This document shows, in pieces, positions 6,405-8,064 of a stretch of 20,157 nucleotides of DNA. Under the pieces are notes generated by a model. The model was not told where the DNA came from and did no database searches. It saw only the letters and a program-made list of their open reading frames with translations. Positions within the stretch are counted from its first letter, which is position 1. Each line of letters opens with the position of its first letter. This stretch comes from a virus. The position numbers were made by a program, and so were the translations under genes. Where the stretch lies: positions 1 to 20,157 of the IMG/VR virus record IMGVR_UViG_3300022074_000487. One strand, 5' to 3'.

Positions 6405-6445
6405 AAAGAGGTTGGGGTTAATTCCCCAACCCCTTTCTTTTTATT
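6405..6445 (+). terminator. Intrinsic (rho-independent) terminator after capsid gene
   Basis: Left arm AAAGAGGTTGGGG (6405-6417) pairs with right arm CCCCAACCCCTTT (6424-6436) around the 6-nt loop TTAATT. Twelve of 13 positions pair; only A6409 opposite C6432 fails. The T-rich tract CTTTTTATT follows at once. It is by far the most G/C-rich structure in the area, and its place after the capsid gene matches the late terminator after gene 10 in T7. As the genes downstream are on the same strand, it probably lets some transcription through. Confidence 0.9.
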
Positions 6446-6466
6446 AATTTTATTATATATTATATT
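6446..6466 (+). promoter_or_regulatory. A/T-only translation leader after terminator
   Basis: The sequence between the terminator and the ATG at 6467 is purely A and T, with no Shine-Dalgarno. The 11 nt before the start and first 11 nt of the gene (6456-6477) repeat those of the scaffold gene at 3602-3623. I could not recognise a promoter, though one might be expected if the terminator is efficient. Confidence 0.45.
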
Positions 6467-7285
6467 ATGGCAAAAAAACAAAAAACACAAGAGGTAGAGG
6501 TACCTGTTGTTGAAACACCAGTTGTTGAAACATCAAAACCTAAAAAAGTTGAACCTAAAAAACCAACTTGGGAAATAAAAGATAGAGTTTATTATTTAAA
6601 AGGCAATTTAAAACCTCTTTCTAAAATGATTAGATCTTCTGATATATTTTGGTTTGACGAAGAAAAAGGTTATCAAAGAGAGCTTAAATATTGCCAAAAT
6701 CAACAAACTTGTTTTGTAGATGAAATGAAAGGAGACCAAAGACTTTCTCATATTATATTTAGAAACGGAGTTTTGTTTGTAGAAAAAGAAAAAACAGTTT
6801 TACAAAAACTATTGTCTTTATATCACCCTCATGCAGGTAATATTTTTTATGAATATAATCCTAGTGAAATAGCTGAACAACAAATAGACATGCTAGAACT
6901 AGAAGCAGATGCAATAGTTACCGCTAGAAGTATGGATATTAATTTAGCAGAGGCTATACTACGTGTTGAAAACGGCTCTAAAGTTTCTAAGATGAGTTCT
7001 AGCGAACTTAAAAGAGATTTACTAGTGTTTGCTAGAAAAAATCCTTCTTTGTTTTTAGAATTAGCTAGTGATGACAATGTTCAATTAAGAAATTTTGGTA
7101 TTAACGCTGTAGAGCTTGGTATTATTAAATTAAGTCCAGACCAAAGAAACTTCATGTGGGGATCTAATAACAGACCTATTATGACAGTACCATTTGATGA
7201 GCATCCATATACTGCTTTAGCGCATTGGTTTAAAACTGATGAAGGTATGGAAATATATTCAAATATAGAAAAACGATTAAATTAA
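6467..7285 (+). CDS. Conserved virion-module protein, function unknown
   Basis: This 272-residue protein sits between the capsid gene and the connector candidates. Its N-terminus (about 1-38) is a low-complexity Lys/Pro/Val/Glu segment with a repeated PVVET motif, probably flexible. The rest appears folded: WEIKDRVYYLKGNLKPLS, a mixed region with YCQNQQTCFVDE, then a helical C-terminal half with VSKMSSSELKRDLLVFARK and FGINAVELGIIKLSPDQ, ending FKTDEGMEIYSNIEKRL. I recall similar proteins beside capsid genes of uncultured marine phages, but know no assigned function. Head completion, capsid decoration or connector roles are all possible from position. No signal peptide, membrane segment or catalytic motif is visible. 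It lies just downstream of the terminator, so its expression may be lower than that of the capsid protein. The start at 6467 is the only sensible one. Confidence 0.75.
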   Translation: MAKKQKTQEVEVPVVETPVVETSKPKKVEPKKPTWEIKDRVYYLKGNLKPLSKMIRSSDIFWFDEEKGYQRELKYCQNQQTCFVDEMKGDQRLSHIIFRNGVLFVEKEKTVLQKLLSLYHPHAGNIFYEYNPSEIAEQQIDMLELEADAIVTARSMDINLAEAILRVENGSKVSKMSSSELKRDLLVFARKNPSLFLELASDDNVQLRNFGINAVELGIIKLSPDQRNFMWGSNNRPIMTVPFDEHPYTALAHWFKTDEGMEIYSNIEKRLN

Positions 7286-7291
7286 TCAAAC

Positions 7292-7330
7292 TGTAGGAGC
7301 GGTCGCTCTACGGGGCGATCGCAAACTACA
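7292..7330 (+). promoter_or_regulatory. GC-rich element with two alternative hairpins
   Basis: In the 56-nt gap before 7342, a short GC-rich block stands out from A/T-rich surroundings. One fold pairs GCGGTCGC (7299-7306) with GCGATCGC (7315-7322), with one G-T wobble, and TGTAG (7292-7296) with CTACA (7326-7330). A competing fold pairs GTAG (7293-7296) with CTAC (7308-7311) and AGCG (7298-7301) with CGCT (7304-7307), with one bulged G. No T-tract follows, so it is not an ordinary terminator on the + strand. RNA processing, stability or translational control are possible; the role is unknown. Confidence 0.6.
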
Positions 7331-7341
7331 AAAAATAAAAT

Positions 7342-8064
7342 ATGGCAGTAAACGTAGACACAGTATATCAAAGAGTATTAGCTTTGGCTAATAAAGAGCA
7401 AAGAGGTTATGTAACACCTCAAGAGTTTAATTTATTTGCTAATCAAGCTCAAATGGATATATTTGAGCAATATTTTTATGATATAAATCAGTTTAGTAGA
7501 GTGCCTGGTAATGAAACAGAATACTCTGACATGGTAACTTTATTAGAAGAAAAAATAGCTAAGTTTGAAAAGTTTAAAGTATCAATGTCAGCTGTTAGCG
7601 GTAATCAACTAACACTACCTACAGATGTCTATAGATTAGGAACTGTATTTTACGCTGTTGGTGGTGCTTACGACGTTGAGGTTGAAAAGGTTGGCAAAAA
7701 AGATTTAGAGTATATGTCTAGAACAGCTTTATACGCACCTGTTGAAACTAGACCTGTTTATACTAGAAAATCAGATACTTTATTAAAACTGTTTCCAGCT
7801 TCTCCTAGCACTTCATATTCAGTTAGCAATGTAACTTGTAATTACGTAGCAAAACCCGCAGATGTCTCTTGGGCTTATACCGAAGTAAACGGCACGGCTT
7901 TATTTAACAGTGCTTCTGCTGTTGATTTTGAACTCCATGCTTCTGAAGAAAAAAACTTGGTTATAAAAATATTAGCTTTAGCTGGTATATCTATTGACGA
8001 CTCTGGTTTATACCAAATAGCGTCACAAGAAAACGCAAAAGAAATACAACAAGAAAAACAATAA
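7342..8064 (+). CDS. Putative head-tail connector / ring protein
   Basis: This 240-residue protein probably forms part of the ring stack between portal and nozzle. The N-terminus is helical, with VYQRVLALANKEQRGYVTP and FNLFANQAQMDIFEQYFYD, a motif I recall from connector-region proteins of crAss-like and marine phages. A beta-rich middle follows, including LTLPTDVYRLGTVFY, similar to the 'LP-D-RL' strand of adaptor proteins such as T7 gp11. Then come LLKLFPASP and CNYVAKPADVSW, and finally a helix with NLVIKILALAGI. The tail, IQQEKQ, is Gln/Lys-rich. The next gene starts 3 nt after the stop, so the two are probably translated together and act in one complex. The fold assignment is by resemblance and position; which ring it forms cannot be told. 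Confidence 0.6.
   Translation: MAVNVDTVYQRVLALANKEQRGYVTPQEFNLFANQAQMDIFEQYFYDINQFSRVPGNETEYSDMVTLLEEKIAKFEKFKVSMSAVSGNQLTLPTDVYRLGTVFYAVGGAYDVEVEKVGKKDLEYMSRTALYAPVETRPVYTRKSDTLLKLFPASPSTSYSVSNVTCNYVAKPADVSWAYTEVNGTALFNSASAVDFELHASEEKNLVIKILALAGISIDDSGLYQIASQENAKEIQQEKQ

Follow-up and report, generated by a model that had tools for sequence, protein, structure and literature searches.

A selected two-tier UNCG hairpin at one fixed intergenic site in phages of likely Bacteroidota hosts, and its possible role as a post-transcriptional boundary

Results

Gene context of the hairpin

The window, by which we mean the whole stretch of 20,157 nucleotides that was analysed, carries an intergenic hairpin at positions 7292-7330; this hairpin and the flanking features of the window listed next lie on the + strand. 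The gene upstream of the hairpin encodes a 272-aa protein (6467..7285, with the stop codon TAA at 7283-7285), assigned to phrog_34748 from the ORF list and PHROGs. The next gene downstream encodes a 240-aa virion structural protein (7342..8064, phrog_14543 by PHROGs). The genes that follow the hairpin had initially been taken for connector genes; PHROGs labels them virion structural proteins. A 6-nt spacer, TCAAAC (7286..7291), separates the stop codon from the base of the hairpin, and an A-rich leader (7331..7341) separates the hairpin from the ATG at 7342. Based on the sequence, a terminator scan, and a survey of equivalent gaps, this leader contains no U-tract and leaves no room for a promoter. 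Further upstream, the gene for a 517-aa structural protein (the probable major capsid protein) is followed by a U-tract terminator (6410..6440), identified by the terminator scan and in relatives, and then by an AT block conserved in relatives, TATTAATTTTATTATATATTATATT (6442..6466), that directly precedes the 272-aa gene and is a probable promoter or leader.

Structural proteins of the window are less than 60% identical to those of podovirus-like phages of Flavobacterium, Cellulophaga, and Maribacter; a Tenacibaculum phage was matched by the portal protein only, also at less than 60% identity. These protein matches make a Bacteroidota host likely; the group is one of marine phages, probably with Flavobacteria-like hosts. 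A DNA search of a phage collection at E 1e-5 returned no near relative of the window, and comparison of three of its proteins with solved structures gave no useful match. Relatives of the 272-aa protein are encoded by 598 stretches in IMG/VR, of which 80 were used here. Three contigs that contain the same phage head region (L286, L287, and L288) are filed under Maricaulis and Sphingobacteriales metagenome-assembled genomes and are likely to be mis-binned virus contigs.

Anatomy and fold of the hairpin

The 39 nt at 7292-7330 fold as one two-tier RNA hairpin, consisting of a clamp, an internal loop, an upper stem, and a UNCG tetraloop. The clamp is a 5-bp helix formed by UGUAG (7292..7296) and CUACA (7326..7330), and both of its arms were assigned from the fold and from alignment A1, described below. 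A 2x3 internal loop, with GA on the 5' side (7297..7298) and AAA on the 3' side (7323..7325), separates the clamp from an upper helix of 10 bp, in which the 5' arm GCGGUCGCUC (7299..7308) pairs with the 3' arm GGGCGAUCGC (7313..7322), these arms being likewise assigned from the fold and alignment A1. The upper helix is capped by UACG (7309..7312), a loop of the UNCG type closed by a C-G pair and identified from the fold, the loop counts, and the tree. The first-pass annotation had described two nested stems in this block, and both are present as it read them. The inner stem extends further than was recognized, however, because the 8-nt loop assigned to it is made up of the tetraloop and the last two base pairs.

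The predicted RNA fold energy of 7292-7330 is -24.5 kcal/mol compared to -6.7 for shuffled sequences (z -8.71), and none of 200 shuffles folded as well. Folded as DNA, the same interval gave -10.8 (z -6.6). The identical RNA hairpin was recovered in each of the four longer sequence contexts tried. Consistent with the initial statement that the block carries no known motif, no Rfam 15 family matched 7292-7330 at its gathering score. Weak matches to snR51 and Clostridium-PBP (E 8.6-9.5) were taken as chance.

Selection on RNA base pairing

Comparison of compensatory changes in related phages had been proposed as a check on the structure, and these changes were found. Alignment A1 comprises 50 distinct hairpin cores, hand-picked for the fold. 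Of its 726 cells, 99.4% hold standard pairs, and 9 of the 15 pairs have changed on both sides. The covariation score of A1 was 0.536 compared to 0.290 after shuffling and no more than 0.185 in slid controls. RNAalifold applied to A1 recovered the upper 10 pairs and did not recover the clamp. Within the clamp sequence UAG, the UA is invariant in A1, and every row that has letters on both sides at the next position retains the G.

Because the rows of A1 had been picked for the fold, we used a second set of cores chosen by the UNCG loop only. The 370 cells of these 37 distinct cores comprise 302 Watson-Crick pairs, 63 G.U pairs, and 5 others, with no A.C pairs. The presence of G.U and absence of A.C indicates that the plus-strand RNA is the pairing form and that the hairpin acts as RNA of the + strand. 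A palindrome recognized at the DNA level is disfavored by the same counts (G.U 63 vs A.C 0). A promoter inside the hairpin is disfavored by the free variation, in pairs, of the letters of the stem.

A UNCG loop was found in 142 of 198 distinct gaps, with UACG the most frequent (102), followed by UUCG (37), UGCG (2), and UCCG (1). Parsimony on a FastTree tree built from 191 proteins gives at least 32 changes of the loop letter, always within UNCG. Counting pairs from the loop, the sixth requires at least 10 changes on either side, and the ninth at least 20 on one side and 19 on the other; all of these are minima on an unverified tree, and recombination could inflate them.

A single site per genome

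A motif scan identified at least 119 stretches with the hairpin motif. Among the 119 matches listed, 118 lie 10 or 13 nt past the last aligned codon of the homologue of the 272-aa gene, and the remaining match, which has the same flank, sits at the edge of a contig. When a covariance model derived from 50 hairpin cores was run on the window, on 168 of 285 loci, and on 15 whole records, no second site reached E <0.01. Within set stem and loop limits, one U-less UNCG hairpin each was found in the window and in two near-full-length records of 66-67 kb (G011 and G012), outside of reading frames. With one site per genome, the hairpin is not a repeated element, nor is it a feature used throughout the genome. 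The block at 7292-7330 is a real, selected, and site-specific RNA hairpin of fixed structure.

Position of the hairpin relative to the flanking genes

Placement is tighter on the upstream side of the hairpin than on the downstream side. In gaps without a U-tract, the spacer after the stop codon is 6 nt in 118 of 166 cases and 7 nt in a further 18. The standard deviation of the leader length is 4.5 nt compared to 1.2 nt for the upstream spacer, part of the leader spread being due to fold-boundary error. The median stop-to-start distance across the folded hairpin is 18 nt.

The 240-aa gene lies more than 130 nt away in 51 of the 268 loci in which it could be detected. In both such loci that were read (L020 and L062), a short gene intervenes, and in L062 several do. 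At L020:3876-4028 and L062:4734-4898, a gene of 50-54 aa encoding a KGLGD... protein with a CGC motif is located between the hairpin or terminator and the 240-aa gene; this gene probably explains why the distance is longer in many of these 51 cases.

Terminators at the equivalent site

In sister lineages and in cultivated phages the same gap contains a terminator with a U-tract, among them the Maribacter phage Panino, an elemo phage, and MW202828, a complete spring-derived genome of an uncultivated phage. Phage phi38:1 and others also have a U-tract terminator in the equivalent gap. The isolates read from the phage collection had such terminators, and none with the U-less form was found there. 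Several of these terminators are followed by a TAnnTTTG-like box, resembling the Bacteroidota promoter consensus. A run of at least 5 U follows the stem in 26 of 195 distinct gaps, and on the tree of 191 proteins this state has changed at least 9 times. The next ATG is at least 80 nt away in 21 of the 26 gaps with a U-run, less in 4, and undefined in 1. Gaps longer than 80 nt were found in 3 of the 169 gaps without a U-run (L046, L062, and L274): the long gap apparently results from a GTG start that was read past in L046 and from a misplaced stop in L274, and inserted genes are the likely cause in L062. Four gaps (L008, L250, L079, and L259) contain a U-tract without promoter room, indicating that a terminator is tolerated there without its own downstream promoter. 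In five loci (L231, L232, L235, L241, and L242) we observed UUUU within the clamp, a form intermediate between the terminator and the clamped hairpin.

In an intrinsic (Rho-independent) terminator a U-tract directly follows a GC-rich hairpin, and the hairpin of the window does not fit this description. Its tail, AAACUACA, lacks a U-tract, and 7292-7330 is absent from the list produced by the terminator scan, in agreement with the first-pass annotation, which had noted the missing T-tract. The structural gene that precedes the 272-aa gene has, in the same genomes, retained a U-tract terminator of its own, behind which comes the nearly invariant AT block, as read in 45 of 131 distinct upstream stretches. 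Having neither a U-tract nor room for a promoter, the gap of the window is missing both parts of a transcription boundary and has nevertheless kept a selected hairpin.

Discussion

A possible post-transcriptional boundary

Based on its anatomy, we propose that the hairpin is a post-transcriptional boundary that closes off the head-gene part of a polycistronic late mRNA, acting as an exonuclease block or processing site, a role to which we assign roughly even chances. Since no promoter fits before the next ATG, transcription is expected to continue through the hairpin rather than to end there. The RNA downstream would then be cut or be degraded starting at the 3' end. Here the clamped UNCG hairpin would either stop 3'-to-5' exonucleases or would itself be the cut site, possibly for RNase III. 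A stable upstream mRNA would be left, such that more upstream than downstream protein is made. By this means a boundary composed of a terminator plus a promoter would be replaced by a post-transcriptional one, and the probable role of the hairpin is to mark where the head-gene message ends and to protect that end. The initial suggestion of a processing or mRNA-stability signal holds up to the point that the element is a structured, functional RNA with compensatory changes; the role itself is plausible.

A more general formulation is that these hairpins form a class of boundary elements in phage RNA: junctions made of a terminator and a promoter would repeatedly have given way to a U-less, clamped UNCG hairpin by which a single transcript is divided once it has been made, and protection of the 3' end could be gated by upstream translation. 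Gating is conceivable because the clamp begins 6-7 nt past the stop codon, so that a terminating ribosome should hold the clamp open. We consider this full formulation rather improbable.

Alternative functions

A different reading of the terminator exchange is that the hairpin serves as a leaky attenuator, the U-less structure pausing or partly terminating the host RNA polymerase, perhaps with a factor, and thereby lowering transcription of the downstream module. The U-tract terminators of sister lineages at the same position, the repeated change of state on the tree, and the intermediate forms with UUUU inside the clamp are all compatible with such a function. Nevertheless, 169 of 195 distinct gaps have no run of 5 U, the site in the window fails the terminator scan, and the adjacent terminator at 6410-6440 retains its U-tract in the same genomes; we therefore regard attenuation as unlikely.

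The hairpin could also be a translation element for the next gene, either bringing stop and start codons close enough for re-initiation or keeping the A-rich leader open in hosts whose initiation does not depend on Shine-Dalgarno pairing. The short stop-to-start distance across the folded hairpin is compatible with this function, and according to one report (PMC3014915), hairpins shorten a split ribosome site in T4 genes 25 and 38. Like these, the present hairpin occupies a short stretch just before a phage start codon; it differs in that its upstream spacer TCAAAC contains no Shine-Dalgarno-like sequence. The looser placement of the downstream side, to which fold-boundary error contributes, also argues against a translational role, as do the loci in which the 240-aa gene lies more than 130 nt away. 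The earlier proposal that the block sets translation of the following genes is accordingly weakened, the distance to the upstream stop being the one that is fixed, and we view this function as doubtful. At the same time, the closeness of the hairpin to both stop and start means that a role tied to the upstream gene is hard to tell apart from one tied to the downstream gene. A T4 gene 60-type bypass was rejected on the finding that there is no constant take-off or landing codon: the last sense codon of the upstream gene varies (AAT 64, AAA 42, GCG 12 ... of 166), and an in-frame match to it is found in the A-rich leader in 75 of 166 cases.

The first-pass annotation suggested a two-state RNA switch in which a shared arm chooses between the nested stems and a competing GTAG/CTAC plus AGCG/CGCT stem. 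The competing stem can form, and the 5' half alone may adopt it (-7.3 kcal/mol), perhaps briefly during transcription; it is minor, at -7.3 compared to -23.5 kcal/mol for the full hairpin, a penalty of 16 kcal/mol. The summed pair probability of the alternative is approximately 4e-9, as calculated by T-letter folding with tetraloop bonuses dropped. The arm said to be shared corresponds to the tetraloop, which has changed repeatedly while staying UNCG. The CTAC arm consists of the loop UAC and the closing C; it is absent from the UUCG relatives and is present at the needed loop position in 105 of 198 distinct gaps, with the AGCG/CGCT arms also available in 31 of 198. A riboswitch-like RNA requires two conserved, mutually exclusive folds, which were not found here, and we consider a switch very improbable.

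We take the GTAG head and palindromic body of the element to resemble a GTAG-type REP, but a mobile palindrome of this kind carried into the phage is the least credible explanation, with almost no likelihood, given that a GTAG REP/BIME requires many dispersed extragenic copies and here there is one copy per record in one context, the exact 30-mer was not found in a genome contig collection, and the G.U pattern of the stem is strand-polar.

Relationship to known systems

In phage T7 a boundary follows the head genes: Tphi, located after the capsid gene, terminates transcription intrinsically and has a U-run; the present element differs in having no U-run. The hairpin is a further version of the known phage intercistronic UNCG hairpins. 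As described in PMC8948821, the CUUCGG hairpins of T4 and of Salmonella phage 7-11 are likewise stable structures with a UUCG-type loop between phage genes, and one of them stabilizes the T4 gene 32 message. The present element is likewise a C(UNCG)G-capped stem between phage genes; it does not share the many genomic copies reported for the T4 hairpins, differing by its one fixed site per genome, the predominance of UACG over UUCG, a separate clamp helix, and the exchange with terminators.

In PMC11925234, the E. coli galE hairpin, with a stem of 8 bp and a loop of 4 nt, is described as an exonuclease block that sets polarity. The two elements are alike in having a short GC-rich stem with a 4-nt loop, and the 10-bp stem plus clamp would also lie inside a polycistronic mRNA, as judged from the gene layout. 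The galE hairpin lies inside galT, whereas the present hairpin is intergenic. In addition, these precedents come from E. coli and T4, whereas the present phages point to Bacteroidota. The element was not found described in those portions of the literature available to us on phage intergenic hairpins, UUCG intercistronic hairpins, Bacteroidota phage terminators, and conserved RNA structures of phages, or on Cellulophaga transcriptomes and on RNase III and capsid genes.

The hairpin is a cis-acting RNA structure with good support and no Rfam 15 match at gathering score, and it occurs in a phage group that has hundreds of metagenomic relatives with likely Bacteroidota hosts. If the proposed boundary function is correct, these phages would set unequal outputs of head and downstream proteins inside one transcript. 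The terminators, intermediate forms, and clamped hairpins would then represent a natural series with which to test how transcriptional and post-transcriptional boundaries interchange.

Additional features of the surrounding region

The AT block at 6442-6466 was matched in 8 of 10 records, one of which had a second, weaker match, and is mostly single-copy. In ten other loci (L024, L042, L053, L054, L055, L057, L061, L062, L064, and L073), a conserved CTTTAYTATGTAACTATA...AGTAAAA block follows the U-tract terminator. This block holds an inverted repeat, and its exact form occurs once per record in all six such records searched. Neither the AT block nor the post-terminator block recurred as a clear promoter family. 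In L062, the 272-aa gene and the terminator are separated by two small genes that look related to each other (112 and 129 aa; L062:3870-4623), indicating that the boundary need not stay with that gene; these two genes possibly encode decoration proteins.
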